Position numbers and translations under genes: made by a program. This document shows, one piece after another, positions 707 through 51,862 of a stretch of DNA of 56,285 bases. Origin of the DNA: Acidovorax sp. SRB_14 (GTDB lineage: Bacteria; Pseudomonadota; Gammaproteobacteria; Burkholderiales; Burkholderiaceae_C); the NCBI RefSeq assembly GCF_012932145.1, contig NZ_MWOK01000019.1:1-56285 (forward strand), given 5' to 3'. The notes beneath the pieces are model-generated. The model was not told the DNA's origin, searched no databases, and was given only the letters and a program-made list of their open reading frames with translations. The stretch's first letter is position 1. Every line of letters starts with the position of its first letter.

Positions 707-760
707 AAACCCGTTCAAACGCTTGCTGAAAAAGCGCTGACAGCTATATTTTGAATAGCA
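707..760. repeat. Interspersed ~60-bp imperfect inverted repeat, intergenic copy
   Basis: Between the convergent Gly-rich gene and hydrolase gene. Core features are AAACGCTTG, then AAGCGCTGACAGCTAT, then TTTTGAATAGC. The distal half matches the segment inside ppiA (25713-25738) at 24 of 26 bases. It abuts the stop codon of the minus-strand hydrolase. Confidence 0.7.
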
Positions 761-1633
761 TCACGAGCGCTCTGCTGCCAGCAAGAAGGCCTCCACGGTC
801 TGCAGCTGCCCGGTCACATTGAGCGCCGGCGCGTGGCCGCAGTCCTGCACTTCAAGCACCTGCAGCTGTCCCCGCGCACCAGGGCCGCGCAGCTGCATGG
901 CTGCTGTGGTCTGCGGCAGCACCAGGTCGGACTCGGCGCCGCGCAGGCACAGCACGGGGATGTCGAGCGCGTCGTAATGCTCCCAGATGCGGTAGTCGTT
1001 GTCGTGGTGCGTGAACTGCTGCACCATGGCCGGGTCGTAGTGCGGCGTGACGCGGCCGTCGCCCAGGCGGCGCGTGGAGGTTTCGGTCAGGCGCCGCCAC
1101 TGTGCGTCGCTGAGCCAGCCATAGGGTTGGTAGACCTGCCGGAAGAATGCCTCCAGCTCGCGCACGGTGTCGAAGGCGGGCGGCTGGCCCGCATAGGCCT
1201 TGATGCGCGCGAGCGCCGCGTCGGCCAGCTGCGGCGCGTTGTCGTTGAGCAGCAGGCTGCGGATGCGCCCCTTGAGCTGCGGCTCGAACAGCCCCGCCGC
1301 GCACACCGTGCCAATGGCGCCGCCCATCGAGGTGCCCACCCAGTGCGCCTGCGCGATGCCCAGCTGGTCAAACAGGTCGGCGGCGATGCGGGCGTAGAAC
1401 GACAGGCAGTATTCGTCCTGCGGCCTCCGGCTCCACTGGCTCAGGCCGCGCCCGAGCGTGTCCGGGCAGACCACGCGCCAGCGCGGCGCCAGGTGCGCCG
1501 CCAGTTCGTCCATGTCGCGCCCGGTGCGCGCCAGGCCGTGCCATGCAATCACCACGGGGGCGTCCTGCGCACCCCACTCCGTGTAGTGGATTTCGTAGCC
1601 GGCGCAGGTGGCGTAGCGGGAATTGGGAGACAT
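761..1633 (-). CDS. Alpha/beta-fold hydrolase
   Basis: This 290-residue protein has the alpha/beta hydrolase layout. An oxyanion HG motif lies near residue 32 (AWHGLARTG), the nucleophile elbow GTSMGG near residue 100, a candidate acid in GAESDLV and a catalytic His in DCGHAP near the C-terminus. There is no signal peptide, so it is probably cytoplasmic. It is the last gene of the minus-strand operon that carries a Liv-type transporter and a 3-hydroxybutyrate-oligomer hydrolase; the gap to the preceding receptor gene is 40 bp. Hydrolysis of an ester or short oligomer taken up by the transporter is an inference. The substrate cannot be read from sequence. The ATG at 1633 has AAGGTG upstream. 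Confidence 0.85.
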   Translation of the reverse strand: MSPNSRYATCAGYEIHYTEWGAQDAPVVIAWHGLARTGRDMDELAAHLAPRWRVVCPDTLGRGLSQWSRRPQDEYCLSFYARIAADLFDQLGIAQAHWVGTSMGGAIGTVCAAGLFEPQLKGRIRSLLLNDNAPQLADAALARIKAYAGQPPAFDTVRELEAFFRQVYQPYGWLSDAQWRRLTETSTRRLGDGRVTPHYDPAMVQQFTHHDNDYRIWEHYDALDIPVLCLRGAESDLVLPQTTAAMQLRGPGARGQLQVLEVQDCGHAPALNVTGQLQTVEAFLLAAERS

Positions 1634-1673
1634 GGTGAAGCACCTTGTGAAACAGGGAGACGGCGCCGCCGCC

Positions 1674-2825
1674 TCATTTCATGAGCCGGCCCGAGCGACC
1701 AATCACGGTCACTTCGACGTAGCGCGACCCAATGCGGTTGGTGGGTGAGTAGCCCACGGTGATCCCGCCCAGGTCCAGGCGCTGCAGGGATTCGAGCGCC
1801 TTGAGCACCTTGGCGCGCGTGGGTGCGGGCCCGGCGCGGCGCAGGGCCTCGACCAGCACCTTCGCACCGAGAAACTGCTCGAAGCTGGTGTAGTTGACCT
1901 CGGCCCCGGGCGCGTACTGTTTCAGCAACTGCTGGTACTCGCGCACCACCGGCAGCATCGGCTGGTAGGGGAATGGCACCACCTGGCTGATGCCCAGGCC
2001 GTGGGCGTTCTGCAGCCCTGCCAGCTTGACCAACTCGGCCGGGTCCACCACCGAAATGCTGTAGAGCTGCGCGCCTCCGCCCTGCGCGCGGTAGCGCTGG
2101 ATGAACGCCGCCGCCGGCTTGTTGATGGCGATCATGATCACGGCCTGCGCATCGGCGGCCTGGATGGCGCGGACCGCACCGTCGACCTGGTCGGTGTTGC
2201 GCTCGTAGCCGGCCGAGGCCACGAGCCGGAGCTTGCGCTTGGCCAGCGCCGCCTCCACGCCCGCCAGGCCGGCCTTGCCAAACCCGTCGTCCTGGTACAT
2301 CACGGCCACGCGGTCCATGCCCAGGGTGGTGAGCTGCTGCACCATGTGCTCGGCCTCGTCGGCATAGCCCGCGCGCACATGGAAGATCCAGGGGTTGAAC
2401 GGGTTGCGCAGCGGCTCGCCCCCGGTGTAGGGCGCCACCAGGGCCGCCCCGCCCTGCTCCAGCACGCCATCGGCGAGCAGCTGCGTGATGTTGGCCGTGC
2501 CGGCGAAACCATAGAGCGCCACCACCTCGGGACGCTCCAGCAGTTCGCGCGTGAGGCGCACCGTGTCGGGCACCTTGTATCCGTCGTCCACCACGGACTG
2601 GCGGATCTTGGCGCCGTGCACGCCGCCCTGGGCGTTGATCCAGTCAAAGTAGATTTTTCCGCCCAGCACCATTTGTTGGCCGGTGGTGGCGAGCACCCCC
2701 GACAGGGGCGCCACCTGGCCAATGACGATCTCACCGGCACGGGCAGGCTGCGCCAGTCCCCCTCCAGCGCAGAGGGCGAGCGCGGCCAGCAGGCCGGCCG
2801 CGCACGACTTCCAGAATGTTTGCAT
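1674..2825 (-). CDS. Liv-type ABC transporter periplasmic substrate-binding protein (second receptor of the operon)
   Basis: A 383-residue type-I periplasmic binding protein of the leucine-binding/HAAT receptor family. Start MQTFWKSC is followed by a signal peptide (hydrophobic LLAALALCA, cleavage after ARA near residue 30). Mature sequence begins GEIVIGQVAPLSGVLATTGQ, the standard LivJ-like opening. The frame is open far upstream through the 3HB-oligomer hydrolase gene, but signal peptide and family length place the start at 2825. It lies 29 bp downstream of the oligomer hydrolase and upstream of the alpha/beta hydrolase. A second receptor in the same operon suggests the LivFGHM core serves two ligands. 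Ligand unknown. Confidence 0.88.
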   Translation of the reverse strand: MQTFWKSCAAGLLAALALCAGGGLAQPARAGEIVIGQVAPLSGVLATTGQQMVLGGKIYFDWINAQGGVHGAKIRQSVVDDGYKVPDTVRLTRELLERPEVVALYGFAGTANITQLLADGVLEQGGAALVAPYTGGEPLRNPFNPWIFHVRAGYADEAEHMVQQLTTLGMDRVAVMYQDDGFGKAGLAGVEAALAKRKLRLVASAGYERNTDQVDGAVRAIQAADAQAVIMIAINKPAAAFIQRYRAQGGGAQLYSISVVDPAELVKLAGLQNAHGLGISQVVPFPYQPMLPVVREYQQLLKQYAPGAEVNYTSFEQFLGAKVLVEALRRAGPAPTRAKVLKALESLQRLDLGGITVGYSPTNRIGSRYVEVTVIGRSGRLMK

Positions 2826-2854
2826 GGTGGGGTTCCTGCGCAGCCAGCCCGGGC

Positions 2855-5041: not shown

Positions 5042-5076
5042 GATGTCTCCTTTTTTCACTGACACAAAAAGCGTGC

Positions 5077-7141: not shown

Positions 7142-7166
7142 GCCGTGGCCCCCTTTCCGCGCTGCG

Positions 7167-7225
7167 GAAAATATGTTTTTGATAGCTGTCCGCGCTTGCC
7201 ACACAAGCGTTTGAGGCCGATTGAA
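7167..7225. repeat. Interspersed ~60-bp imperfect inverted repeat, between livF and livH
   Basis: Contains GATAGCTGTCCGCGCTTG...CAAGCGTTTGAGGCCGATTG. The reverse complement aligns with the other copies (CGGCC, AAACGCTTG, AAGCGC, AGCTATCAAAAA). It occupies most of the gap inside the liv operon. Confidence 0.7.
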
Positions 7226-7233
7226 GAATTCCG

Positions 7234-7959
7234 TCACAGTGCCAACCCCAACAGCGAACGCTGCAGCGCCTCGTCTTCGGCCAGCTGCGCCATGGAGCCT
7301 GCATGCACGACGGTGCCGTTGTCCATCACGGCCACCGAGTCGCCCAGGCGCTTGGCGAAATGGATGTTCTGCTCGACCAGCAGGATGGTCACGCCGCTCT
7401 TCTTGAGCTGGTCGAACGCCTCGATCATGTTGTTGACGATGGCAGGTGCCAGGCCCTTGCTGGGTTCGTCGACGATCAGCAGGTCGCGCGGCTCGACGAT
7501 GGCGCGCGCCACCGCCACCATCTGCTTCTGCCCGCCCGAGAGCTTGCCGGCCGGATGGTTCCAGAACTTCTCCACGGCCGGGAACAGGCCAAAGATCCAC
7601 TCCAGCCGCGCCGGGTCCATCTGCGCGGCGGTGCGGGCCGCACGAGCGGCCAGCAGCATGTTCTCCTTGACCGTGAGGTCGGCAAAGATGCCCATGTTCT
7701 CGGGCACATAGGCGATGTTCCTGCCCGCGATCTGCGGCGTGTGCAGCGCCGTGATGTCCTCGCCCGCGAAGTGGATCGAGCCCTTGGAGGCGTGCCACAG
7801 GCCCATGATGGTGCGCAGCGTGGTCGTCTTGCCCGCGCCGTTGCGGCCCAGCAGCAGGGTCAGTTCGCCCCGGGGCACGGCCAGGTCGACGCCGTGCAGG
7901 ATGTGGTAGGCGCCGATGTGCGTGTGCACGCCCTTGAGCTCCAGCAGGTTGTCGCTCAT
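7234..7959 (-). CDS. livF: Branched-chain amino acid-type ABC transporter ATPase LivF
   Basis: A 241-residue ABC ATPase. Walker A GRNGAGKTT is near residue 38, the signature LSGGQKQ near residue 138, Walker B LLIVDEPSKGL near residue 158 and the switch His in LLVEQNIHF. The length and the ENMLLAAR region fit LivF. Its ATG (7959) overlaps the TGA of livG in an ATGA arrangement, implying translational coupling. It forms a heterodimeric motor with LivG. Confidence 0.93.
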   Translation of the reverse strand: MSDNLLELKGVHTHIGAYHILHGVDLAVPRGELTLLLGRNGAGKTTTLRTIMGLWHASKGSIHFAGEDITALHTPQIAGRNIAYVPENMGIFADLTVKENMLLAARAARTAAQMDPARLEWIFGLFPAVEKFWNHPAGKLSGGQKQMVAVARAIVEPRDLLIVDEPSKGLAPAIVNNMIEAFDQLKKSGVTILLVEQNIHFAKRLGDSVAVMDNGTVVHAGSMAQLAEDEALQRSLLGLAL

Positions 7960-8720
7960 GCTGCCTCCTTCGTGACACCCAGGTAGGCCTCTTGCACCAC
8001 GGGCGAGGCGATCACTTCGGCGGGCGCGCCGTCGGCCACCAGCGTGCCGTTGGTCAGCACGATGATGCGGTCGGCCAGCTCGCGCACCACGTCCATCTTG
8101 TGCTCGACCAGCAGGATCGTCTTGGTGGGGTCCTTCTTGAGTTCGCGGATCAGGTTCAGGATCACGGGGGCCTCGTCGTGGCCCATGCCGGCCGTGGGCT
8201 CGTCGAACATGTAGACCTGCGGTTCGAGCGCCATCAGCAGCGCCACTTCGAGCTTGCGCTGGTCGCCGTGCGGCAGGCTGGCGACGGCAGTGCCGCGGCG
8301 CTCCTGCAGCGCGACGGCCTCCAGGATGGCCTCGGCGCGCTCGGTCAGCACGCGGTGGTCGCTCCAGATGCTCCACAGGTTCAGGCCGCGGCGGTGCGGC
8401 CCTTCGCGCGTGGCCTGCACGGCCAGGCGCACGTTCTCCAGCACGCTGAGGCCCGGAAACAGGTTGGTCAGCTGGAAGGCGCGCCCGAGCCCGGCGCGCG
8501 TGCGTGCCGACGGGGCCAGGCCGGTGAGCTCGCGCCCGCCCAGCCGCACCGAACCGGCGCTGGCCTTGAGCTGCCCCGAGATCAGGTTGAAGTACGTGGT
8601 CTTGCCCGCGCCGTTGGGGCCGACGATGGCGGTGAGCGTGCCCGGCGCGAACGCGCAGCTCACGGCATTCACCGCCACATGGCCGCCGAAGCGAATGGTC
8701 AGGTCTTTTGTAGCCAGCAT
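7956..8720 (-). CDS. livG: Branched-chain amino acid-type ABC transporter ATPase LivG
   Basis: A 254-residue ABC ATPase. Walker A GPNGAGKTT is near residue 36, and LGRAFQLTNLFPGLSVLENV is the LivG-typical Q-loop region. The signature is LPHGDQRKLEVA (an LSHGEQ variant common in LivG), Walker B is VYMFDEPTAGM and the switch is LLVEHKMD. It is the first ATPase of the operon, 112 bp after the receptor gene, and that gap contains an interspersed repeat. It is coupled to livF by a 4-bp overlap. Confidence 0.93.
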   Translation of the reverse strand: MLATKDLTIRFGGHVAVNAVSCAFAPGTLTAIVGPNGAGKTTYFNLISGQLKASAGSVRLGGRELTGLAPSARTRAGLGRAFQLTNLFPGLSVLENVRLAVQATREGPHRRGLNLWSIWSDHRVLTERAEAILEAVALQERRGTAVASLPHGDQRKLEVALLMALEPQVYMFDEPTAGMGHDEAPVILNLIRELKKDPTKTILLVEHKMDVVRELADRIIVLTNGTLVADGAPAEVIASPVVQEAYLGVTKEAA

Positions 8721-8721
8721 C

Positions 8722-8786
8722 GAAATTCAGGTAAAACCGCCCCAAACGCTTGATGGACAAGCGCTAAAAGCTATAAAAACAGAAGC
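8722..8786. repeat. Interspersed ~60-bp imperfect inverted repeat, between receptor gene and livG
   Basis: Contains AAACGCTTGATGGACAAGCG followed by CTAAAAGCTATAAAAACAG, the same AAACGCTTG/CAAGCGCT/AGCTAT order as the other copies. It is the second copy inside this operon. Confidence 0.65.
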
Positions 8787-8832
8787 AATCCGCCATGGGC
8801 AGGCCGCGCTTGCGCCCTGCCCCCGCGCCGCA

Positions 8833-11693: not shown

Positions 11694-11713
11694 GCGCCAG
11701 CGCTGCCTTACGC

Positions 11714-11777
11714 TACCAAAAAAAGAGCTGCCAGCGCTTATGCGATAAGCGCTGGCAGCCCATTTGGCTTGAAATTC
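11714..11777. repeat. Interspersed ~60-bp inverted repeat, copy forming the tctA terminator
   Basis: Reverse complement reads TTTCAAGCCAAATGGGCTGC, then CAGCGCTTAT-CGC-ATAAGCGCTG and GCAGC before poly-T. It shares its left end with the translated copy in tctD (TTCAAGCCAAATCGGGCTCC). Confidence 0.75.
11718..11759 (-). terminator. Rho-independent terminator of tctCBA, formed from an interspersed repeat copy
   Basis: A perfect 15-bp stem (11727-11741 with 11745-11759, 3-nt loop) is followed on the minus strand by TC and a run of seven T (11718-11724). It lies 22 bp beyond the tctA stop and just before the sigma-54 regulator gene. It would separate the two transcription units. The hairpin is itself a copy of the repeat family. 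Confidence 0.8.
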
Positions 11778-11780
11778 GGC

Positions 11781-15115: not shown

Positions 15116-15802
15116 ATGCAATTGCTCCTCGTTGAAGACGACCCCACCATGCAGGCCACGCTGCAGCGCGCCCTGGCACGCCGCGGCATGGAAGTGACCG
15201 CCGTGGGCGACGGCCGCAGCGCGCTCGCCCGCTGGAGCGACCTGGCCCCCGACGCCGTCGTGCTCGACCTGACGCTGCCCGGCCTGGACGGCCTGCAGGT
15301 GCTGGAGCAGGCCCGCGCGCGCGGCCTGCGCACGCCGGTGCTGATCCTGACCGCGCGCGGCACCGTCGGCGACCGGGTGCTGGGCCTCAACGCCGGCGCC
15401 GACGACTACCTGCCCAAGCCTTTCGACCTCGACGAGCTCGAGGCGCGGCTGCGCGCGCTGCAGCGCCGCAGCCACGACCCGGTTCAAGCCAAATCGGGCT
15501 CCAGCGCAATACAGATGGGCGCTATACGCTATGAAAAAGAGAGTGGCGCGATCTACCTGAACGGCGCCATCATGGAACTGACGCCGCGCGAGCTGGCCCT
15601 CATGCATGCGCTGCTGGCGCAGCCCGGCCACGCCGTGGCCAAGGAGCGGCTGTATGGGCTGGTCTTCCCGGGCCAGCTCGACGTGCAATACGAAGCCATC
15701 GAAGTGGTGGTGTACCGCCTGCGCAAAAAGCTTGCCGGCACGGGCCTGACGCTGATGACGCTGCGCGGCCTGGGCTACCTGCTCAAGACCGACACCGCAT
15801 GA
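15116..15802 (+). CDS. tctD: OmpR/TctD-family response regulator
   Basis: A 228-residue two-component regulator. The receiver domain (residues 1-115) has acidic pair EDD (7-9), phospho-acceptor Asp in VVLDLTLPG near residue 51, Thr in LTARG near 79 and Lys in YLPKPFD near 101. The C-terminal OmpR-type winged helix runs from ~residue 140 (LTPRELALMHALL; VVVYRLRKKL). Divergence from tctCBA and overlap with the kinase gene (ATGA) make it the likely TctD controlling tctCBA. The linker at residues ~123-142 is encoded by DNA matching the interspersed repeat. The start at 15116 is set by the conserved MQLLLVEDD; upstream in-frame ATGs lie in the promoter region. Confidence 0.9.
   Translation: MQLLLVEDDPTMQATLQRALARRGMEVTAVGDGRSALARWSDLAPDAVVLDLTLPGLDGLQVLEQARARGLRTPVLILTARGTVGDRVLGLNAGADDYLPKPFDLDELEARLRALQRRSHDPVQAKSGSSAIQMGAIRYEKESGAIYLNGAIMELTPRELALMHALLAQPGHAVAKERLYGLVFPGQLDVQYEAIEVVVYRLRKKLAGTGLTLMTLRGLGYLLKTDTA
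15483..15543 (+). repeat. Interspersed repeat copy inside the tctD coding sequence
   Basis: Begins TTCAAGCCAAATCGGGCTCC, matching the left end of the intergenic copy at 11714-11777, continues AGCGC...GGCGCTATACGCTAT and ends GAAAAAGAG. It encodes the receiver/winged-helix linker without breaking the frame. Confidence 0.65.
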
Positions 15803-18951: not shown

Positions 18952-19044
18952 TGGCGGAAACGGAGGGATTCGAACCCTCGATGAGGCTCTACACCCCATA
19001 CTCCCTTAGCAGGGGAGCACCTTCGGCCACTCGGTCACGTTTCC
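18952..19044 (-). tRNA. tRNA-Ser (anticodon GCU), CCA encoded
   Basis: The 93-nt minus-strand sequence begins GGAAACGTGACCGAGTGGCC and ends with the acceptor complement GTTTCCGCCA. The anticodon loop CTGCTAA reads AGY serine codons. The T-loop GGTTCGAATCC is intact, and a long variable arm is present as expected for class II tRNA-Ser. It lies 33 bp after lysC and may be co-transcribed with it or use a CATAAT-like -10 in that gap. Confidence 0.97.
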
Positions 19045-20406: not shown

Positions 20407-21381
20407 TCATGCAGGGGGGGGGCCAAAACCCTCGGGATTGTACCAATGCAGCCCCGTCCCCCTGCGCTCGACGAAGCCGCCCCCCACCTTGAGGTGAATG
20501 CGGTGGCCACGCGTAGTGCAGGCGAGGATCTGGCGCTGCAGTGCCGCCAGTTGCGCTGTGGCCGGCGTGGTCTGGTGCGTGCTGCGCAGCCAGTGGCGCA
20601 GCACGTTGGCCTGGCGCGCGCCACTGAGCGCCTGCAGCGCGGCGATCTGCGGCGGCACGCCGACGGCGGCCAGGTCCTGCTGGGCGAGTTCGTACAGCAG
20701 TTCGCTGGCCTGGGCCGCGTGCGCCGCACTGCGCGCGAAGGTGTCGCGGAACGCGGGAAAGACGGCACCGAGCGCGGGCAGCAGGCGCGCGCGGATGCGG
20801 TTGCGCGTGTAGCGCTCGTCGCTGTTGCTCGGGTCTTCGACCCAGGTCTCGCCGCGCGCCTGCAGCCAGGCGCGCACGTCGGCGGCTGCCACCTTCAGCA
20901 GCGGCCGGTGCCAGGCCATGCCGCCGCGCTGCCACTGCGCCGGCATGGCGGCCAGCCCGGCCACGCCGGCGCCGCGCGAGAGCGCCAGCAGCAGGGTCTC
21001 GGCCTGGTCGTCGGCATGCTGCGCCAGCGCTATCGACTTGATAGCTGAATGCGCTTGACTGGCTTGGGCTGCAGCCTCAAAAGCCTTGTAACGGGCGATG
21101 CGCGCAGCATCTTCAGGGCTTTGCCCGGGCGCGTGGCGCGCATCGACGCGCTGCACCACCAACGGCACCTGCAGCCGCGTGCACAGCGCAGCGCAGTGCT
21201 GCTCGAAGCGGTCGGCCGCGGCCTGCAGGCCGTGGTGCACATGGATCGCCTGCACTTGGCCCGGCCAGCGCGCGGCACAGGCCAGCAGCAGGGCGGTGGA
21301 ATCGGCGCCGCCGCTCAGGCCCACGGCCAGGGGCAGCGTCGGCGCAAAGGCGCGCAGCGCGGCGTCGAAGGACTGGGTCAT
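20407..21381 (-). CDS. tilS: tRNA(Ile)-lysidine synthetase TilS
   Basis: A 324-residue N-type ATP pyrophosphatase that converts C34 of tRNA-Ile(CAU) to lysidine. The P-loop is VGLSGGADSTALLLACA near residue 20; the second signature LAQHADDQAETLLLALSRGAG is near residue 125. It is shorter than E. coli TilS, lacking part of the C-terminal region, as in many betaproteobacteria. Residues ~108-128 (AQASQAHSAIKSIA) are encoded by an interspersed repeat copy. The last codons run through a C9 tract just before the stop, so slippage would alter the C-terminus. The start is 28 bp after accA. Confidence 0.92.
   Translation of the reverse strand: MTQSFDAALRAFAPTLPLAVGLSGGADSTALLLACAARWPGQVQAIHVHHGLQAAADRFEQHCAALCTRLQVPLVVQRVDARHAPGQSPEDAARIARYKAFEAAAQASQAHSAIKSIALAQHADDQAETLLLALSRGAGVAGLAAMPAQWQRGGMAWHRPLLKVAAADVRAWLQARGETWVEDPSNSDERYTRNRIRARLLPALGAVFPAFRDTFARSAAHAAQASELLYELAQQDLAAVGVPPQIAALQALSGARQANVLRHWLRSTHQTTPATAQLAALQRQILACTTRGHRIHLKVGGGFVERRGTGLHWYNPEGFGPPPA
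21025..21085 (-). repeat. Interspersed repeat copy inside the tilS coding sequence
   Basis: The reverse complement contains AAGCCAGTCAAGCGCATTCA then GCTATCAAGTCGATAGCGC, the right half of the repeat family. It is translated between the ARYKAFEA helix and the conserved HADDQAET motif, adding a few residues relative to typical TilS spacing. Confidence 0.6.
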
Positions 21382-22434: not shown

Positions 22435-23106
22435 TCAATATGCGACCGGCAGCGGCGCCAGCGATCGCCAAATATACCAAGTCGCCACGCTGCACCAAGG
22501 CTTCCAGGCCTCGGCCACCTCGCGCGCGTCACTGCGGCTGACCGGGTCACCCGAAAAATAATTGAGGCTGATGCCATTGATCAGCCCCACGTCATCGAGC
22601 GGCAGCACATTGGGCCGCATGAGGTGAAAGATCAGGAACATTTCGGCGGTCCAGCGGCCCACGCCGCGGATCGCGACCAGCTCGGCAATGATGGCCTCGT
22701 CGTCCATGCCCTGCCAGCCATCGACATGCAGCTTGCCGGCGTCAAAGTGCAGCGCCAAATCCACCAGGTAGTCCACCTTGCGCGCCGACAGCCCCACGCC
22801 GCGCATGTCGTCGACCTTGAGCCGGAGCACGTGCGCCGGCGCCATGGCCGGCGGCAGCGCGGCAAAGCGGTCCCACACGGTCTGCGCAGCCTTGACCGAA
22901 ATCTGCTGCCCCACGATGGAGCGCGCCAGCGTGGTGAAGGCGTCGCCGCGCGACTGCAGCGTGGCCTCGCCCAGCTGGGGGATCAGGCGCTTCATCACCC
23001 GGTCCTTCTTCATGAGGTGCTTGCGGGCTTCCGCCCAATACCCGGGCGCGGCCAGGTCGGCGGCCTCTATTGCTATGTTTTTAGAAGCTGGCACGGCAAG
23101 TCCCAT
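22435..23106 (-). CDS. DNA-3-methyladenine glycosylase II-type (HhH-GPD) base-excision enzyme
   Basis: A 223-residue HhH-GPD protein of the AlkA type. It has [19 protein letters not shown] near residue 65, the helix-hairpin-helix [16 protein letters not shown] near residue 147 and the catalytic Asp in LPLDDVGL just after. It excises alkylated purines. It lies between cysS (33-bp gap) and accA (47-bp gap), an order common in Burkholderiales. N-terminal residues ~7-14 may derive from a fragment of the interspersed repeat. Confidence 0.9.
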
Positions 23107-23139
23107 ATGCCTTATCGGCCATTTTCATGATTAAAAGGC

Positions 23140-24516
23140 TCACGGGGCCACTTCCCAGGTCGTGCCCGCGGCGGCGTCCTTGAGGACGATGCCGGCGGCC
23201 AGCAGCTCGTTGCGGATGCGGTCGGCCTCGGCAAAATTTTTCGTGGCCTTGGCCGCAGCGCGCGCCGCGATCTGCGCCTGGATGGCCGCCTCGTCCAGCG
23301 TCGCGCCCGACTGCAGGAAAGCCTGCGGGTCGCCTTGCAGCAGGCCCAGGCAGCCGCCCAGGCTTTGGAGCAGACCGGCGGCCTGCGCCGACCGGCTGCG
23401 GTTGACCTCGCCGGCCAGATCGAACAGCACCGCCACGGCCTCGGGCGTGCCGAAGTCTTCGTCCATGGCGGCCTTGAAGCGGGCCGCATGGGGCTCGGCC
23501 CAGTCGATTTCCACCGCGGCGGGCGCCACCAGCGAGAGCGCGGTGTACAGGCGCTTGAGCGCGGCGCGCGCGTCGTCGAGGTGCACGTCGCTGTAGTTCA
23601 GCGGGCTGCGGTAGTGGCTGCGCACGACGAAGAAGCGCACGGTCTCGGCGTCGTATTCCTTGAGCACGTCACGGATGGTGAAGAAGTTGCCCAGCGACTT
23701 GGACATCTTCTCGTTGTCCACATTGATGAAGCCGTTGTGCATCCAGGTCTGCGCAAGCGGCTTGCCGGTGGCGCCTTCGCTCTGGGCGATCTCGTTCTCG
23801 TGGTGCGGAAACTGCAGGTCGGCGCCGCCGCCGTGGATGTCGAAGCTCTCGCCCAGCAGTGCGCAGCCCATGGCCGAGCACTCGATGTGCCAGCCGGGGC
23901 GCCCCGGGCCCCAGGCGCTGCTCCACTTCACCTCCTCGGGCTCGCTGGGCTTGGCGCTTTTCCAGAGCACGAAGTCGAGCGGGTCGTGCTTGCCGTCCTG
24001 CACGGCCACGCGCTCGCCGGCGTGGAGTTCATCGAGCGACTTGCCCGAGAGCTTGCCGTAGCCGGCGAACTTGCGCACCGCAAAGTTCACGTCGCCCTCG
24101 CCGGCCTGGTAGGCCAGCCCTTTGCTTTCGAGCCGGCCGATCAGGGACAGCATCTGCGGCACATAGTCGGTGGCGCGCGGCTCGTGCGTGGGGCGCTCGA
24201 TGCCGAGGGCATCGGCGTCCTGGTGCAGGGCGCCGATCATGCGGTCGGTCAGGCCGCGCACGGTTTCGCCGTTCTGCACGGCGCGCTGGATGATCTTGTC
24301 GTCGATATCGGTGATGTTGCGCACATACGTGACGCGCAGGCCGCTGGCGCGCAGCCAGCGCTGCACCACATCGAACGCGACCATGGAGCGCGCATGTCCC
24401 AGGTGGCACAGGTCGTACACCGTCATGCCGCAGACATACATGCGCACATGGCCGGGGTCGAGCGGTGCAAAGTCCTCCAACGCACGCGTGAGCGTGTTGT
24501 AGATGCGCAGGGTCAT
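23140..24516 (-). CDS. cysS: Cysteinyl-tRNA synthetase
   Basis: A 458-residue class I aminoacyl-tRNA synthetase. [18 protein letters not shown] near residue 28 holds the first zinc Cys and the HIGH-type motif. Further zinc ligands are in HIECSAM and [11 protein letters not shown]. The KMSKS motif is [11 protein letters not shown] near residue 267. The ATG at 24516 ([11 protein letters not shown]) matches the family start; the open frame extends a little upstream. It heads the minus-strand cluster cysS-alkA-accA-tilS-lysC and is divergent from the TPR gene. Confidence 0.96.
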
Positions 24517-25466: not shown

Positions 25467-25670
25467 GGGCGGCCACACCGGCATGGCAGAGGCAGAGCGC
25501 ACCCGCGCACTCGCCGGTGGTTGAAGTGCACACCTTGACGTTTCCTCTTTGGGTGTTCGGCCCTACCAGTGTGGCGTTGGCCACGGGCGCCGCCCAAGCA
25601 GTTCTCGCGCGCGCCAGTATTGGATGCTGCACGACCGCCTGTGGAAAACAATCTACGAAGGAGTGATCGA

Positions 25671-26255
25671 ATGATTTCCAGACGAAAATCGACTCTAGCG
25701 CTTTCAGTCATTGCGCTGACAGCTATGTTTTCAATAGCGCCATCGGTCCAGGCGCAGGCTGCGCCCCAGGTCAAGCTCGCCACCTCGATGGGCGACATCG
25801 TGGTGCAGCTCGACCCTGCCAAGGCGCCCAAGACCGCGGAGAACTTCCTGCAGTACGTGCGGGACAAGCACTACGACGGCACCATCTTCCACCGCGTGAT
25901 CGACGGCTTCATGGTGCAGGGCGGCGGCTTCACGGCCGACATGGCGCAAAAGCCCACGCGCGCGCCGATTCCTCTCGAGGCCGCCAATGGCCTGAAGAAC
26001 GACACCTATACCATCGCCATGGCGCGCACCGGCAACCCGAACTCGGCCACCGCGCAGTTCTTCATCAACGTCAAGGACAACGCCATGCTCAACGCGCCCC
26101 AGCCGGACGGATACGGCTATGCCGTGTTCGGCAAGGTGGTCCAGGGCAGCGACGTGGTCGACAAGATCAAGGCCGTGGCCACCGGCAGCCGCGGCGGCCA
26201 CCAGAACGTGCCCACCACCCCTGTCACCATCATTTCCGCCACGGTGCTGAAGTAA
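25671..26255 (+). CDS. ppiA: Periplasmic peptidyl-prolyl cis-trans isomerase (cyclophilin type)
   Basis: A 194-residue cyclophilin with a Sec signal peptide (residues ~1-28, cleaved after VQA). Core motifs are [15 protein letters not shown] near residue 83 and [18 protein letters not shown] near residue 122, including the conserved catalytic Arg and Phe/Gln. It accelerates proline isomerisation in exported proteins. AAGGAG precedes the ATG at 25671. The hydrophobic core of the signal peptide ([16 protein letters not shown]) is encoded by a copy of the interspersed repeat. It is followed 28 bp later by a cytoplasmic paralogue. Confidence 0.92.
25683..25738 (+). repeat. Interspersed repeat copy inside the ppiA signal-peptide coding sequence
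   Basis: Begins AAAATCGACTCTAGCGCTTTCA and ends GCGCTGACAGCTATGTTTTC plus AATAGC. The last 26 bases match the intergenic copy at ~707-760 at 24 positions. It is translated as the signal-peptide h-region. Confidence 0.7.
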
Positions 26256-31815: not shown

Positions 31816-31892
31816 GCGGGTACGGCCTGCGGGCGCAGTTGGAACATTCCGCACCGTTTCGGTGGGCACCGCCGCAGGCGCCGATCTGGTAA

Positions 31893-31953
31893 GAAAATCG
31901 GCTAAAAACCATGCCAGATATGCGCAGAAAGCTCTGTTTTCGAGAGCGCCTGC
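31893..31953. repeat. Degenerate interspersed repeat copy between amidase and M20 genes
   Basis: AAAATCGGCTAAAAACC...GCGCAGAAAGCTCTGTTTTC then GAGAGC parallels the ppiA copy (AAAATCGACTCTAGCGC...GACAGCTATGTTTTCAATAGC). It lies between convergent genes. Confidence 0.45.
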
Positions 31954-38143: not shown

Positions 38144-40834
38144 TCAGTTACGAAGTGTATACATGGCGGCCCGCGCAATGCTTGCGGCATCCACCCCGAA
38201 AAATCCGCGCAGCGCGGCCCGTGTGTCGCTGCGGCCGAAGCCGTCCGTGCCCAGTGTGAGGTAGCGCCGGCCCTCGGGCACCCAGGCGCGCACGCTGTCG
38301 GGCACGGCGCGCACGTAGTCGGTGGCGGCAATCACCGGGCCTTGGGTGCCCGCAAGCTGCTGGGCGATCCACGGCGTGCCGGGCGCCGCGTCGCCCACCA
38401 GCGCGCGCTGTTCGCAGGCTTGGCCGTCGCGGGCCAGCTCGCTCCAGCTGGTCACGCTGAGCACGGTGGCCGAGACGCCCTCGGCGGCCAGTAATTGGGC
38501 GGCCTGCAGCACCTCGGTCAGGATGGCGCCGGAGCCCAGCAGGGTCACGTATTTGGATGAAATCGGCCCCTGGCCCGCATCTGCCTTGCGCAGATAGCTA
38601 TGGAAGACATAGCAGCCGCGCAGCACGCCCTCTTGCGCTCCAGCGGGCAGGTCGGGCTGGGCGTAGTTCTCGTTCATCAGCGTGATGTAGTAGAAAACGT
38701 CGCGCTGCTCCTGCACCATGGCGCGCATGCCGGCGTTGAGGATCACCGCGAGCTCGCCCGCAAAGGCCGGGTCGTAGGCCTTGCAGTTGGGGATGGTGGC
38801 CGCCACCAGGTGGCTGCTGCCGTCCTGATGCTGCAGGCCCTCGCCGGCGAGCGTGGTGCGGCCCGAGGTGGCGCCGAGCAGAAAGCCGCGTGCGCGCTGG
38901 TCAGCGGCGGCCCAGATGGCGTCGCCGACGCGCTGGAAGCCGAACATCGAGTAGTAGATGTAGAACGGCAGCATGGCCAGGCCGTGCACGCTGTAGCTGG
39001 TGGCGGCGGCCGTCCAGCTGGCCAGCGCACCGGCTTCGCTGATGCCTTCCTCGAGGATCTGCCCGTCGAGTGCCTCGCGGTAGCTCAGCACCGAGCCGAT
39101 GTCTTCGGGCGCGTAGCGCTGGCCGACGCTGCTGTAGATGCCGACCTGCTTGAACAGGTTGGCCATGCCGAAGGTGCGCGCTTCGTCGGCCACGATGGGC
39201 ACGATGCGCGGGCCCAGCTGCGCGTCTTTGAGCAGGGCGCCGAGCATGCGCACAAAGGCCATCGTGGTGCTCATTTCCTTGGCCTGCGGCTGCAGCGCAA
39301 AGCGCGCGTAGCTTTCCAGCGCCGGCACGGGCAGCGTGTCGCAGATGGACTCGCGTTGCGGCAAATAGCCGCCGAGCTGCTGGCGCTGCCGGTGCAGGTA
39401 CTGCATCTCGGGGCTGTCCTCGGCCGGCTTGTAGAACGCCAGGCCCGTGGCCTGCGCATCGGAGAGCGGCAGTTTGAAGCGGTTGCGGAACTCGATCAGG
39501 TCGGTCTCGTCGAGCTTCTTCTGGCTGTGCGTGGTCATCTTGCCCTGTCCCGCCGTGCCCATGCCGTAGCCCTTCTTGGTGTGGGCCAGGATCACCGTGG
39601 GCTGGCCGGTGTGGCGCGCGGCGGCGGCGTAGGCGGCGTGGATCTTCACGAGGTCGTGCCCGCCGCGCTTCAGGCGGTCGATCTGCTCGTCGGTCATGCC
39701 CTGCACCAGGTGCGCCAGTTCGGGGTTCTGGCCAAAGAAGTTGTCGCGGTTGAAGCGCCCGTCCTTGGCGGCAAAGGTTTGCATCTGCCCGTCCACGGTG
39801 CCGGCCAGGGCCCGCGCCAGCGCGCCCGTGAGGTCGCGCGCGAACAGGCCGTCCCAGTCGCTGCCCCAGACCAGCTTGATCACGTTCCAGCCGGCGCCCG
39901 AGAACAGGCGCTCGAGCTCGTCGATGATGCGGCCGTTGCCGCGCACCGGGCCGTCAAGGCGCTGCAGGTTGCAGTTGACCACCCAGACCAGGTTGTCGAG
40001 CTTCTCGCGCGCGGCCAGCGTCAGCGCGCTCATGCTCTCGGGCTCGTCCATTTCGCCGTCGCCAAACACGCCCCACACGCGCCGCATCGCGGTGCGTCCT
40101 GCTGTGTCATTGCGTCCCGCGCAGTCGAGCAGCCCGCGGTGCGTGAGGTAGTGCATGAAGCGCGCGTGGTAGATCGAGCTGATCGGACCGATGCCCATCG
40201 AGCCCGTGGGGAACTGCCAGAAGTCGGGCATGAGCCACGGGTGCGGGTAGCTCGACAGGCCCTGCGCACCGGCCGCGGGCGCGGTGATTTCCTGCCGGTA
40301 ATGCATCAGGTCCGCTTCGGACAGGCGCCCCTCCAGGTAGGCGCGCGCATACACGCCCGGCGCGCTGTGCGGCTGGAAGAACACCAGGTCGCCGCGGTGC
40401 TGGCCCGCGCCCAGGCCCTCGCGGGCGCGGAAGAAGTGGTTGAAGCCGGACTCGAAGAGGTCGGCCGCGCTGGCATAGCTGGCGATGTGGCCGCCGAGTT
40501 CGCCGTAGGCCTGGTTGGCGCGCACCACCATGGCCAGCGCGTTCCAGCGCACGATGGACGCGACCCGCTCCTCGATCGCCAGGTCGCCCGGGAACACCGG
40601 CTGCTCGTGCACCGCCACGCTGTTCACATAAGGCGTGTTCAGGTCGGGCTGCCAGCCAATGCGCTGGGTGCGCGCCAGCAGCACCAGCTCTTGCAGCATG
40701 TGGCGCGCGCGCTCTGGGCCTTCGGTTGCCAGCAGTGCCAGAAAGGCGTCGCGCCACTCGGCAGTTTCTTCGGGGTCGGTGTCGGCAGCGTCCAGGTCCG
40801 GCGCGGCAATGGAAAGAGACGTCAGGGCATTCAT
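38144..40834 (-). CDS. mdeB: AceE-type 2-oxoacid dehydrogenase E1 (MdeB-like, probable 2-oxobutanoate/pyruvate E1)
   Basis: An 896-residue homodimeric E1. It has the thiamine-diphosphate motif GDGEMDEPESMSALTLAARE near residue 240, followed by NCNLQRLDGPVRGNG as in AceE. KKGYGMGTAGQGKMTTHSQK is near 420 and the transketolase pyrimidine domain spans ~490-700. No E2 or E3 gene is adjacent, so this is not the housekeeping pdh operon. The divergent Lrp-type gene and downstream metNIQ/PLP enzyme match the Pseudomonas mdeR-mdeAB theme, where MdeB oxidises 2-oxobutanoate from methionine. E2/E3 would be borrowed. A short segment near the C-terminal domain is encoded by an interspersed repeat. ATG chosen at 40834. 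Confidence 0.82.
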   Translation of the reverse strand: MNALTSLSIAAPDLDAADTDPEETAEWRDAFLALLATEGPERARHMLQELVLLARTQRIGWQPDLNTPYVNSVAVHEQPVFPGDLAIEERVASIVRWNALAMVVRANQAYGELGGHIASYASAADLFESGFNHFFRAREGLGAGQHRGDLVFFQPHSAPGVYARAYLEGRLSEADLMHYRQEITAPAAGAQGLSSYPHPWLMPDFWQFPTGSMGIGPISSIYHARFMHYLTHRGLLDCAGRNDTAGRTAMRRVWGVFGDGEMDEPESMSALTLAAREKLDNLVWVVNCNLQRLDGPVRGNGRIIDELERLFSGAGWNVIKLVWGSDWDGLFARDLTGALARALAGTVDGQMQTFAAKDGRFNRDNFFGQNPELAHLVQGMTDEQIDRLKRGGHDLVKIHAAYAAAARHTGQPTVILAHTKKGYGMGTAGQGKMTTHSQKKLDETDLIEFRNRFKLPLSDAQATGLAFYKPAEDSPEMQYLHRQRQQLGGYLPQRESICDTLPVPALESYARFALQPQAKEMSTTMAFVRMLGALLKDAQLGPRIVPIVADEARTFGMANLFKQVGIYSSVGQRYAPEDIGSVLSYREALDGQILEEGISEAGALASWTAAATSYSVHGLAMLPFYIYYSMFGFQRVGDAIWAAADQRARGFLLGATSGRTTLAGEGLQHQDGSSHLVAATIPNCKAYDPAFAGELAVILNAGMRAMVQEQRDVFYYITLMNENYAQPDLPAGAQEGVLRGCYVFHSYLRKADAGQGPISSKYVTLLGSGAILTEVLQAAQLLAAEGVSATVLSVTSWSELARDGQACEQRALVGDAAPGTPWIAQQLAGTQGPVIAATDYVRAVPDSVRAWVPEGRRYLTLGTDGFGRSDTRAALRGFFGVDAASIARAAMYTLRN
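38551..38612 (+). repeat. Interspersed repeat copy inside the MdeB-like E1 coding sequence
   Basis: On the plus strand it reads ATTTGGATGAAATCGGCCCC, then TGCCTTGCGCAGATAGCTAT and ends AAGACATAGC, the full order of the family. On the coding strand it is translated as about VFHSYLRKADAGQGPISSKY, a stretch longer than the same region of E. coli AceE as I recall it. Confidence 0.6.
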
Positions 40835-42974: not shown

Positions 42975-43019
42975 AATAGATCAAATGTAGGAGCTAGCGG
43001 CCGCTATACCAAGCCCAGG
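42975..43019. repeat. Degenerate interspersed repeat copy
   Basis: TCAAATGTAGGAGCTAGCGG then CCGCTATACCAAGCCCAGGC resembles a shortened copy of the family, upstream of the dioxygenase gene. Confidence 0.4.
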
Positions 43020-44967: not shown

Positions 44968-45321
44968 TCAGTGGCGATGGCCGTGGCGGTGGCCATGCCC
45001 ATGGCCGCGCCAGCCCTCACGGTAATAGCCATAGGCGGGAGGCCCCACCACCACCGCAGGCGCGTAATAGACCGGGCGCGGCGGCGCGTAGTACACCGGC
45101 GGCGGCGGTGCGTAATACACCGGACGCGGCGGCGCGTAATAGACCGGCGCGGGCGCCGCATACACGGGGTAGCCATTGGTCACCCCCACCGAAACACCGG
45201 GCGAACTCAGCCCCACCGACCAGTTCACATCGCGCGCCTGGGCAATGCCTGGGCCCAGCAACGCGGCCAATGCCACACCGGCAGCGGCAGCCATGCCATA
45301 CAGGGAACGGATTCTTGTCAT
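44968..45321 (-). CDS. Small exported protein with PVYYAPP repeats and His-rich C-terminus
   Basis: A 117-residue protein. The signal peptide spans residues ~1-31 (AAAAGVALAALLGPGIAQA). The mature part starts RDVNWSVGLSSPGVSVGV, then five tandem Pro-Tyr units of the type PVYYAPP(R/P) near residues 55-90. The tail is GHGHGHRHGHRH. AGGAGA lies before the ATG at 45321. Comparable PVYYAPP proteins are widespread in Burkholderiales as uncharacterised exported proteins. The His-rich tail could bind metal ions; that is inference. Confidence 0.82.
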   Translation of the reverse strand: MTRIRSLYGMAAAAGVALAALLGPGIAQARDVNWSVGLSSPGVSVGVTNGYPVYAAPAPVYYAPPRPVYYAPPPPVYYAPPRPVYYAPAVVVGPPAYGYYREGWRGHGHGHRHGHRH

Positions 45322-49116: not shown

Positions 49117-49206
49117 ATTTCGCAATAAAACAAAACACGCCCTATTAGTGGAACCTTCACAGAAAAAACCGACTGGAAAAATTTTGCTAGCGACAAAATA
49201 AAACTG

Positions 49207-49935
49207 ATGGCCAAATTTCTCAACACCAGCGCAACCAATTACTTTCTCGAAGAATTAATAAAATGCGCTTCTGACCGCCTCATCCTCATCAGTCCCTTCC
49301 TCAAACTTAATGACCGGATGAAAGAGCTGTTGGCCGACAAGAATCGTTTGAAAATCGACGTGCGCATCGTCTACGGCAAAAGCGAGTTGCAGCCGCAAGA
49401 GATTGAATGGCTGCGTGGTCTGACCTATATCCGGACCAGCTTTTGCAAGAACCTGCACGCAAAATGCTACATGAACGAAGAGATGTGCATCGTGACCAGT
49501 CTGAACCTGTACGAGTTCAGCCAAGTCAACAATAACGAGATGGGCATCCTGATTCAACGCGGCGAAGACGGCCAACTCTACAAAGACGCTTATGAAGAAG
49601 CGCAGCGCATCATCCGCATCAGCGATGAAGTGCGTATTTCTCTGGAGCGCGTGGCCGCTGGCGGACCGGAACACGCCACTACGCAGGAACCGGATACGAC
49701 AAGCAGCGATGCCGAAGCATCAGCAGGCGGCAAAATTGCCTCGTCCAAGCTGGCGCAGAAATTCGGCCTAAAAACAGCGCAACTACTGGATCGCGCCACA
49801 GAGCAAGGCTACTTGGAACAACAAGACGATAAGCATGTGCTCACGCCCAAGGGCGAGCAGGCGGGCGTGGAGCTTGTGGCCAAGTCGCGGTTTGGGCCTT
49901 ATTTCTTATGGCCGCAGGATTTGGTGTTGGCATAA
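49207..49935 (+). CDS. PLD-family phosphodiesterase-like protein with C-terminal winged-helix-like region
   Basis: A 242-residue protein. The N-terminal PLD-like domain has a single HxK motif in NLHAKCYMNEEMCIVTSLNL near residue 80, with Glu where Asp is usual and Asn later, suggesting a dimeric nuclease or phosphodiesterase. An acidic linker (~residues 155-178) leads to a compact C-terminal segment (SSKLAQKFGLKTAQLLDRATEQGYLEQ) resembling a winged helix. The frame is open without ATG back to 49129 and encodes FTEKTDWKNFASDKIKL, possibly a fused or lost upstream domain. It follows the DUF262/DUF1524 gene by 90 bp, so a shared defense role is plausible but unproven. Base composition shifts from AT-rich to GC-rich within the gene. 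Confidence 0.8.
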   Translation: MAKFLNTSATNYFLEELIKCASDRLILISPFLKLNDRMKELLADKNRLKIDVRIVYGKSELQPQEIEWLRGLTYIRTSFCKNLHAKCYMNEEMCIVTSLNLYEFSQVNNNEMGILIQRGEDGQLYKDAYEEAQRIIRISDEVRISLERVAAGGPEHATTQEPDTTSSDAEASAGGKIASSKLAQKFGLKTAQLLDRATEQGYLEQQDDKHVLTPKGEQAGVELVAKSRFGPYFLWPQDLVLA

Positions 49936-49960
49936 GACGCGACGGCGTACTCATCCGACG

Positions 49961-50023
49961 CTCTTATTTCAATAGCAACTAACGCTTACTCCGTAAGACT
50001 ATCGGCCAATTTTATTCAAATTC
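49961..50023. repeat. Degenerate interspersed repeat copy at the island's right edge
   Basis: CTTATTTCAATAGCAACTAA-CGCTTACTCCGTAAGACTAT-CGGCC-AATTTTATTCAAATTC carries the family order in reverse orientation. The central CTTAC-TCC-GTAAG forms a small hairpin. Confidence 0.5.
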
Positions 50024-50031
50024 ATCGGCGC

Positions 50032-50070
50032 ATGAACTTTGCAGACCGGCACAAGCAGCCTCCCTCCGCC
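50032..50070 (+). pseudogene. Truncated duplicate of the DUF2322-like gene start
   Basis: The 39 bases beginning ATGAACTTTGCAGACCGGC match the start of the gene at 51869 (51869-51907) at 33 positions, including the start codon and the TCCCTCCGCC end. Nothing of the rest of that gene follows. Like the intact gene, it is preceded by an interspersed repeat copy. It marks a past duplication or rearrangement breakpoint. Confidence 0.65.
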
Positions 50071-50083
50071 GTGCCTGCCTGCC

Positions 50084-50866
50084 TCACTTCAACCACTTGT
50101 CGGCCGCCTGCTTGAGCGCGCCGCGGCTGTCCACCTGGCCCCAGACGAACCCCATCACACGGGTGTAGTCGGCGTCGTCCTTGGGCAGCATGAAGCCCAG
50201 GTAGCTTTGGGGCGTGAGCGGTGCGTCCATGAAGGCGGAGTGCAGGCGCGGGTCGGCCTTGCTGTAGACCAGCGCTTCGTAGGTTTCGGTGATCATCACG
50301 TCGCCCTTGCCTTCGGCGATCAGCGCGGGGATCTCGGCGTTCTTGTCGTGCGTGCTGACCTGCGCGGCCTTGAGGTTTTCCAGCACATAGGCCTCGTTGG
50401 TGCCACCGGGGTTCTTGATGACGCGCACGCTGGCCTTGTTGAGGTCTTGCGGCGCGTTGAATTGGGCCTTGTCGGCGGAGCGCACCAGCGCCACCTTGCC
50501 GAAGGGCGCGTAGCCCGGGAGCATTTCGATCTGGCGGATGCGCGCGACGTTGCGGGTGATGCCGCCCACGGCCACGTCGAATTTGTCGGCCTGGATGTCC
50601 TTCATGAGGTTGGGCCACGAGGTTTGCACGTACTCGATCTTCACGCCCAGTTCCTTGGCCATGGCCTCGATCACGTCGATGTCGTGGCCCGAGAAGCCGC
50701 CATCCGTCTTGATGGCGAACGGCCGGTAGTCGCCCGACGTCCCCACGCGGATGACCTTGGTCTCCATGATCTTGTCGAGCCGGGGGCCGGCCTGCGCGGC
50801 CTGGCTGAAGGACAAGCTGGCGACCAGGGCTGCTGCGGCCCAGGCGAATGTTTTCTTTGTGATCAT
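50084..50866 (-). CDS. Periplasmic solute-binding family 3 protein, PheC-like (possible cyclohexadienyl/arogenate dehydratase)
   Basis: A 260-residue SBP_bac_3 protein. Signal peptide residues ~1-26 (AAAALVASLSFSQAAQA). The mature sequence opens RLDKIMETKVIRVGTSGDYR and includes TSWPNLMKDIQADKFDVAVG, NPGGTNEAYV and GKGDVMITETYEA. These segments follow Pseudomonas PheC (cyclohexadienyl dehydratase) closely as I recall it, including the Glu of the TETYEA region. PheC makes phenylpyruvate from prephenate in the periplasm. No ABC permease is adjacent, which favours an enzyme or orphan receptor. Start ATG at 50866. Enzyme function is an inference from resemblance. Confidence 0.75.
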   Translation of the reverse strand: MITKKTFAWAAAALVASLSFSQAAQAGPRLDKIMETKVIRVGTSGDYRPFAIKTDGGFSGHDIDVIEAMAKELGVKIEYVQTSWPNLMKDIQADKFDVAVGGITRNVARIRQIEMLPGYAPFGKVALVRSADKAQFNAPQDLNKASVRVIKNPGGTNEAYVLENLKAAQVSTHDKNAEIPALIAEGKGDVMITETYEALVYSKADPRLHSAFMDAPLTPQSYLGFMLPKDDADYTRVMGFVWGQVDSRGALKQAADKWLK

Positions 50867-51088
50867 TTCAAAGCGCTCCAGGATGGGGTGGGGGAAGCGG
50901 CCTGGGGGCGGAGCGGTTTGCACCGTCCCCCAGGCCGCACGAAAAGAATACCCGAGCCCCCTGCATTCACCTGCCGCGCAGGCGCCAGCGGCCGGCGTGC
51001 CCACGGTCGGGCCCCCCGGTGCCATCCATTGGGGCGTACCATGGCAGCGGGCCCGCTGGCCCCTGTTTTTCCCGAAAGGAAGCCCGCC

Positions 51089-51712
51089 ATGAACTCCCCC
51101 GCCTCCCTTGTCGACGAACTGATGGCCCACCTTCAGGGCGCTCCGCTGCAGCAGATGGCGCAGCAACTGGGCACCAGCCCCGAGCAGACGCAGAACGCGG
51201 TGGGCACAGCCCTGCCGCTGCTGTTGGGCACGCTGGGGCGCAATGCGGCCCAGCCCCAGGGTGCGATGGATCTGTTTGGCGCCTTGCAGCGCGACCACGC
51301 GAACAGTCCTGACCTGGGCGGGCTGCTGGGCTCCCTGCTGGGCGGTGGCGGCGCCGCGCCGGAAAGTCCCCAGACGGATGGCGCGGGCATCCTGGGCCAT
51401 ATTTTTGGCGGCAACCGGCAGCGTGCCGAGGAAAGCCTGGGCCAGGCCACCGGGCTGGGCGCGGGCGCCGGAAAATTGCTGCAGCTTCTGGCGCCGGTCG
51501 TGATGGCGTTCCTCGCCAAGCGCATGACCACGGGCGGCATGGACGCCGGCAGCCTGAGCGAGACCCTGGGCCAGGAGCGTGCGCGCGCGCAGCAACAGGG
51601 CGGCCTGGGCGGCGGTCTGCTGGGCAGCCTGCTCGACCAGGACGGCGACGGCCACGTGGGGCTGAGCGACCTGCTGAAAATGGGCGGTGGGCTGCTGGGC
51701 GGAAAGCGCTGA
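51089..51712 (+). CDS. DUF937-domain protein
   Basis: A 207-residue protein. Residues ~1-70 form the DUF937-type helical region (LVDELMAHLQ; LGTSPEQTQNAVGTALPLLL). A Gly-rich linker (GGLLGSLLGGGG) follows, then a second helical part (LLQLLAPVVMAFLAKRM). An EF-hand-like loop DQDGDGHVGLSDL lies at ~186 before a Gly-rich end. Function of the family is unknown; the loop could bind calcium. AAAGGAAG precedes the ATG at 51089. It is divergent from the PheC-like gene. Confidence 0.85.
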   Translation: MNSPASLVDELMAHLQGAPLQQMAQQLGTSPEQTQNAVGTALPLLLGTLGRNAAQPQGAMDLFGALQRDHANSPDLGGLLGSLLGGGGAAPESPQTDGAGILGHIFGGNRQRAEESLGQATGLGAGAGKLLQLLAPVVMAFLAKRMTTGGMDAGSLSETLGQERARAQQQGGLGGGLLGSLLDQDGDGHVGLSDLLKMGGGLLGGKR

Positions 51713-51800
51713 AGAAGCGCAGCGCCGCGCCAGCGCTCGGCTTCTAAAGAGAGCGTGGCGCGGAGACTTCCGACGGGTGCCGGCGCAGCCGCTCCGCTAA

Positions 51801-51862
51801 TCACATTTGATAGCTGCCAGCGCTTTCCCAGAAAGCGTTTGCGGCCCATTTGACTCTTATTT
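51801..51862. repeat. Interspersed ~60-bp inverted repeat upstream of the DUF2322-like gene
   Basis: TTTGATAGCTGCCAGCGCTT-TCCCAGA-AAGCGTTTGCGGCCCATTTGACTCTTA is a well-preserved copy. Its reverse complement shows CAAATGGGCC, AAACGCTTTC, GAAAGCGCTGGCAGCTATCA. It ends a few bases before the ATG at 51869. Confidence 0.75.

Follow-up and report, generated by a model that had tools for sequence, protein, structure and literature searches.

A dispersed family of gene-free palindromic repeats in Acidovorax sp. SRB_14 and other Comamonadaceae, possibly retained for its nucleotide sequence

The window analysed here, a stretch of 56,285 nucleotides of Acidovorax sp. SRB_14 (contig NZ_MWOK01000019.1, positions 1 to 56,285), carries dispersed copies of a short palindromic element that consists of inverted repeats and holds no gene. 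Eleven of the twelve places given for this family in the original prediction match the repeat profile (covariance model R2, E<0.001), and the copy claimed at 42975 is not among the 22 matches that the model finds in the window up to E=5. Twelve of these matches fall below 0.001 and represent 11 distinct places, one row being the copy at 11706 read in reverse. Seven of the 11 places were seeds of the model, so they match by construction, and four were not (21023, 38545, 15476 and 49954). The coordinates below are those of the 75-nt model footprint; in the case of 691..765 the element itself is shorter than the footprint by about 3 nt at the start and about 4 nt at the end.

691..765, minus strand: element copy, convergent intergenic (59.7 bits, seed)
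7164..7238, plus strand: element copy between two same-direction genes (55.1 bits, seed)
8718..8792, minus strand: element copy between two genes (58.1 bits, seed)
11706..11780, plus strand: element copy with a perfect 13-bp palindrome, by eye (66.3 bits, seed)
15476..15550, minus strand: genic copy, antisense, in open reading frame (ORF) 15116-15802 on the plus strand (E=1.1e-5, non-seed)
18955-19044, minus strand: tRNA gene (Rfam RF00005)
21023..21097, plus strand: genic copy, antisense, in ORF 20407-21381 on the minus strand (E=1.2e-6, non-seed)
23066..23140, plus strand: possible decayed copy, weak match only (E=0.013)
25670..25744, minus strand: element copy (51.8 bits, seed)
31879..31953, minus strand: diverged copy, convergent intergenic (42.5 bits, seed)
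38545..38619, minus strand: genic copy, sense, in ORF 38144-40834 on the minus strand (E=7.9e-6, non-seed)
49954..50028, plus strand: diverged copy, convergent intergenic (E=1.8e-4, non-seed)
51792..51866, plus strand: element copy in a divergent intergenic region (69.6 bits, seed, as locus L001)

Model R2 was built from an ungapped alignment of 34 seeds, namely 28 of the 30 loci returned by a 17-mer of the element plus six window copies, and was run on the window with filters off; loci L002 and L023, truncated at contig ends, were left out. It replaced an earlier model, R1, whose RNAalifold structure had only three pairs. The claim that two copies share 24 of 26 terminal bases holds for those at 707 and 25683, as counted by eye. 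The copy at 38545 has orthologous copies in two relatives, and that at 25670 has counterparts at the matching place in relatives L069 and L072 by coordinates, although the grouping script made no link between them. Read in one frame, this last copy (25671-25742) would encode the N-terminal 24 residues of a putative ORF, with the look of a signal peptide.

The information profile of the 38 copies above 40 bits has sharp ends and drops to background outside positions -14 to +54, for which reason the length is put at about 68 nt, the ~60 bp originally given being too short. The family originally described is real and dispersed. Its consensus, drawn by eye, is GCTATT-N4-TTT-ATAGCTGCCAGCGCTT-N7-AAGCGCTNGAGGCC-NATTTGACTNNAAATT, and the profile shows neither a GTAG nor a CGTC tag at the hairpin base. 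The window copies have a GC content of 39-57% and are GC-poor for the genome. In both the seed alignments and the orthologous dapE copies discussed below, the 7-nt loop reads either CC or its reverse complement GG, an alternation that possibly reflects inversion by template switching.

The family is abundant well beyond chance. The 17-mer has 158 matches with up to two mismatches in the genome of the window and its backward pattern has none, while the profile search recovered at least 150 copies in the same genome. In 400 kb of contig C40 of this genome 63 distinct copies occur, about one per 6 kb (68 rows, five of them reverse readings of a copy). In contrast to this excess, 360 kb of the congener G299 gave no R2 match at E<0.01, the best reaching 17 bits. 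Across 299 genomes of the family the 17-mer had at least 50 matches in 31, between 20 and 49 in eight and fewer in 260 (counted by hand). Together with the named dapE loci, these pattern counts bear out the view that the element is a dispersed, gene-free family common to other Comamonadaceae.

Placement relative to genes was assessed for 74 copies in 456 kb, using genes called by a simple codon-usage script, which places gene limits only approximately and by definition yields open ORFs. Fifty-four copies are intergenic and 20 genic, one of the latter spanning a stop codon, with genes making up 85% of the DNA. The intergenic copies comprise 36 in tandem, 16 in convergent and two in divergent spacers, with 32.2, 9.8 and 12.0 expected by length; divergent (promoter) spacers are therefore depleted (p=2.5e-4) and convergent ones enriched (p=0.034). 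The convergent excess would suit an RNA element, such as a terminator or an mRNA-stability hairpin acting in transcripts, as would the 113 G.T pairs against 44 A.C mismatches counted on one strand, the way that the seeds and the model lean. Nevertheless, the copies have no orientation preference, being 19 sense and 17 antisense in tandem spacers and antisense in 12 of the 20 genic cases, the central helix lacks covariation (see below), and an Rfam scan of the window found only the tRNA plus one chance match and no family for the element, which together make an RNA element quite improbable.

Four strong copies are genic, lying in dapE, tex, gluQ and a meaB-like gene. The genes dapE, gluQ, tex, purL, asparaginase, yfiH/pgeF and kdtA were named by comparison with homologues, while the other genes named are presumably tilS, aceE, hscA, xseA, lpxK, sucB, selO, ygfZ, meaB, PCC, mcm, an ABC-F gene and a response regulator. 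Aligned to homologues of solved structure, the proteins change in length where the copy falls: Tex is 10 residues longer than a chain that we take to be from Pseudomonas, PurL seven longer than one presumably from Salmonella, and DapE 12 longer than one we assign to Neisseria. The matches in PCC-, MCM- and meaB-like genes go with little net length change and may be partial or chance matches.

Of 48 genomes compared, 41, representing 15 genera, hold the dapE copy in frame at a single shared site. Within the genus, 18 of the 20 members aligned carry it there in one orientation (20 of 26 genomes, partial or missing matches having been dropped), and in other genera 23 of 28 orthologues have it, some judged by eye. 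The non-carriers are G299, G318, G243, G265, G199, G194 and G003, six of which have at most four pattern matches genome-wide, and a minimum of five changes on the DapE tree explains the occupancy of the site. Among the best 80 of 571 named dapE loci, 22 have a profile match at the site, the carriers including Acidovorax, Simplicispira, Giesbergeria, Paracidovorax and a Rhodoferax metagenome-assembled genome; by eye, a Comamonas testosteroni locus also has the element and Delftia and Limnohabitans loci are without it. Judged from these comparisons of sequence, the dapE copy is ancient and inherited in place. At the dapE site the letters of the congener G313 agree with those of a Giesbergeria metagenome-assembled genome and the letters of G302 with those of Simplicispira metamorpha, so that the genus of the window probably corresponds to the Simplicispira/Giesbergeria group. 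A second copy occurs just 3' of dapE in several named genera (L234:9379, L255:9388, L282:9337, L290:9322 and others). Among the intergenic sites of the window, 7164 is occupied in 12 of 13 genus genomes compared, and at both 7164 and 8718 the core motifs ATAGCT, GCGC and AAGCG.T.GAG.C are mostly kept by eye, with differing flanks.

In the dapE copy, taking one genome per genus, third codon positions are A or T at a frequency of 0.58, against 0.12 in the remaining gene, and only 0.5% of sliding windows along dapE, those of the element included, reach 0.58. Third-position identity is not raised in the copy, so the constraint would rest on composition and a few half-sites. It seems that nucleotide sequence, in the form of these half-sites, has been kept and not the fold. 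Sites acting as DNA are favoured over an RNA hairpin because the half-sites appear better conserved than the fold and because no orientation is preferred. When the left hairpin of the dapE copies is taken alone, paired cells amount to 0.954 against 0.939 shuffled (p=0.016; p=0.08 for changes on both sides). Compensatory base changes in the central helix were not seen in the dapE copies and not clearly in the paralogous ones, and a structured RNA maintained by them was rejected.

The original prediction had considered mobilisation in trans or spread as hairpin elements, and proposed a search for a linked transposase or for one of the kind associated with repetitive extragenic palindromic (REP) sequences. 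Two pairs of close relatives gave no sign of current movement: 15 of 17 alignable copies are common to both members and the other two fall below threshold in the partner, with site length nearly unchanged (17 further copies had no alignable flanks). A link to a REP-associated transposase was rejected, as carriage of Y1_Tnp (PF01797), the domain searched for, does not follow copy number. It was not found in the element-rich genomes G126, G234, G085, G177 and G248 in a set of 80 genomes, G248 being a single contig with 110 matches, nor in G126, G308, G310 and G320 among 26 genus members, the last three of which are 61-67% complete. In the element-free genomes it has four matches each in G299 and G311 and three in G318. 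The single Y1 gene of the window's genome (L031, G000:C29:241280-241579) lies, by eye, between inverted GGGGTCAGA(C/T)... repeats, a pair that differs from the element. Twenty Y1_Tnp matches, several equal in score, were recorded in G013, which suggests from sequence that this genome holds a multicopy IS200-type element.

A live non-autonomous transposon, either a miniature inverted-repeat transposable element (MITE) or a REP sequence mobilised in trans by a REP-associated tyrosine transposase (RAYT) or another transposase, would account for a sharp-ended inverted repeat dispersed in hundreds of copies. The copies shared by close pairs, the failure of Y1_Tnp presence to track copy number (other transposases were not searched) and a profile devoid of a GTAG-type tag all speak against it, making it improbable. 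At E<0.01 the consensus hits only three of 72,556 plasmid records and none of the 50,697 phage records, a search that would miss diverged copies, and plasmids and phages were rejected as carriers on these counts.

Loss of the family is apparent within the genus. Counts with a second pattern in the 26 genus members are 1 in G299, 2 in G311, 4 in G318, 78 in G312 and 175-471 in the other 22, with G302 the highest at 471. Trees of DapE (48 rows) and PurL (18 rows, 18 of 26 genomes after dropping split or absent genes), both built without the element columns, agree in grouping the element-free genomes with G302 and G312 within the genus. The element-free state is taken as derived because both gene trees nest G299, G311 and G318 inside an element-rich genus; on these trees, near-total loss of copies in the three genomes is the outcome, and the idea that G299 had always lacked the element was rejected. 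The alleles of this clade are 15 nt shorter than those of carriers in dapE (G299, G318) and purL (all three), with a higher GC content in the codons that correspond to the element in other genomes.

We give an even chance to the reading that the elements form a ~68-nt gene-free palindromic family which spread before the genera split, is now immobile and is kept for its nucleotide sequence. Under such a scheme the copies would have spread before the roughly 15 genera separated, by a trans-acting mechanism that can no longer be discerned, and would have become immobile since. Their retention would most likely be due to the inverted half-sites ATAGC, GCGC...GCGC and GAGGC, to which a protein or a system of chromosome maintenance would bind at the DNA level, and in a lineage no longer needing the system the copies would decay and vanish, as in G299, G311 and G318. 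A more specific version, which we put forward as a tentative proposal only, would make the elements the DNA sites of a hitherto undescribed chromosomal Comamonadaceae system, several hundred in number, set between genes and in frame within them, pre-dating the 15 or so genera, under selection and shed together with the system.

Several results weigh against retention for sequence. Across genera the dapE copy has a third-position identity of 0.59, compared with 0.61 for the gene, and the corresponding values inside the genus are 0.63 and 0.65. Over 35 dapE copies the central helix does not co-vary, with paired cells at 0.608 compared with 0.597 after shuffling (p=0.24), and covariation is not clear among 34 paralogous copies either. 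G003 has 40 pattern matches and yet a dapE without the element, and site 8718 is occupied in only seven of 12 genomes, the non-carriers being four with a spacer of about 1.7 kb and no match, and G302 without a copy. The genic share is 4 of 38 among copies above 40 bits and 16 of 36 among weaker ones, and adding 64 nt to short spacers does not by itself reproduce the spacers that bear a copy. The sites compared include no clean empty one that shows a target duplication, a matching transposon having been sought only as Y1_Tnp, and no trans-acting factor was identified in a search that covered Y1_Tnp only. Net length relative to G299 is 0 in mcm, +3 in PCC and -4 in meaB; in tex and dapE it is +15 and in kdtA about +43, figures that do not date insertions because the G299 sites are losses. 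Finally, the inference of loss rests on three genomes, one of them 84% complete.

Some of these points would fit selfish relics like the Rickettsia palindromic elements (RPE), that is, a single spread of copies tolerated in loops and spacers, now decaying and without function. In-frame copies placed where conserved genes vary in length, the missing orientation preference, and a dapE copy with third positions no more alike than those of its gene agree with such relics, and plain purifying selection would explain the avoidance of promoters. Yet codons ending in A or T persist in a GC-rich dapE across 15 genera, two orthologous intergenic sites retain near-consensus core motifs between differing flanks (by eye), and near-total loss in a nested clade of short branches looks fast for passive decay. 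We regard a functionless relic as possible but doubtful.

By analogy, the nearest known kind is the RPE. The element is likewise a short palindromic repeat with in-frame genic copies, seen in dapE, tex and purL against homologues without it, and according to a review (PMC10969869), which covers the work of Ogata et al. (2000 and 2002), RPE are also short palindromes in frame in unrelated genes, with homologues in related species. The likeness is one of description, RPE being ~150 nt long and the element ~68 nt, and as far as that text goes the element differs in belonging to free-living Comamonadaceae, in being mostly intergenic, in occupying one site across 15 genera and in its near-loss from a clade. 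The same text cites Mattes 2008 (Polaromonas genome) for a MITE. REP sequences and bacterial interspersed mosaic elements with RAYT, in the accessible parts of PMC2817692 and PMC3733652, are also short imperfect palindromes present in hundreds per genome; unlike them, the element has no GTAG/CGTC tag, is longer and partly coding, and has no linked Y1 transposase.

The Beta-proteobacterial repeat element (BRE) of Bordetella was considered as well. According to the available text of PMC3110155, it is likewise dispersed in Comamonadaceae, at times inside genes, and in Bordetella it is ~90 bp long, has 69% GC and is often in tandem, by which description it stands apart from an element of ~68 nt and 39-57% GC. 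That text counts 13 BRE in Delftia acidovorans and one and four in two Acidovorax genomes; in contrast, G199, whose dapE site is letter-identical to that of Delftia tsuruhatensis, has two matches to our pattern. Identity with BRE is thus highly improbable. We found no description of the present family in the literature searched, which lacked most subscription papers; the Polaromonas JS666 genome paper and Ogata 2002 may contain one.

To our knowledge, conserved genes with in-frame palindromes have been described mainly in Rickettsia and allied bacteria, and the palindromes are interpreted there as selfish. The same kind of in-frame palindrome is now seen in culturable free-living bacteria, with one site shared by many genera, and whether it is a selfish relic or is kept for use can be tested because there are culturable hosts, a shared site and naturally element-free relatives. 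The in-frame site of 15 genera, the near-total loss in a clade and a link to DUF1010 and integrons go beyond the original prediction.

This link came from the matching plasmids, two of the three records being class 1 integrons. The element travels in integron cassettes, some of which belong to resistance integrons. A Klebsiella plasmid has the element in a small cassette annotated as DUF1010, and plasmid pYKBP039 carries six copies spaced at 319-320 nt in a class 1 integron. The cassette ORF matches Pfam DUF1010 (PF06231) with E=1.1e-26, and a 31-residue reading matches positions 1-31 of its 66 with E=4.2e-14, about 20 of these residues coming from the antisense element and the remainder from the adjoining cassette. 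By this alignment, the first third of DUF1010 is the element read antisense, which suggests that what is filed as a protein family is partly translated repeat DNA, with the element supplying only about that first third. Cassettes with no obvious gene and one copy each were noted at L082:3855-4062, L083:3347-5017 and L326:9995-11841, the antisense being annotated as DUF1010 in one plasmid.

Weak PF06231 matches rise and fall with element number in ten genomes. Up to E=1 there are 124 in G259, 108 in G302, 99 in G122, 70 in G172, 57 in G000 and 20 in G115, and 11, 7, 3 and 1 in the element-poor G318, G299, G243 and G199. Most are weak: matches above the curated cut-off occur in just four genomes of this set. 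Among 14 unrelated controls, 11 likewise have some match at E up to 1, none over the cut-off. Among the matches listed for G000, four of seven overlap element copies. Strong matches cluster; in G302, five copies at L326:9995-11841 adjoin an integron integrase gene (TIGR02249, 466.6 bits), and by eye the repeats end in what we take to be attC-like motifs. Comamonadaceae are a likely source of DUF1010-type cassettes, since element-bearing cassettes adjoin a chromosomal integron integrase of this family. In the accessible text of PMC11616780, DUF1010 cassettes, listed as an 'uncharacterized protein', make up 42 of 195 cassettes of GES-5 integrons.

Apart from the palindromic family, the window contains an imperfect tandem repeat with a 24-nt unit at 45046-45165.

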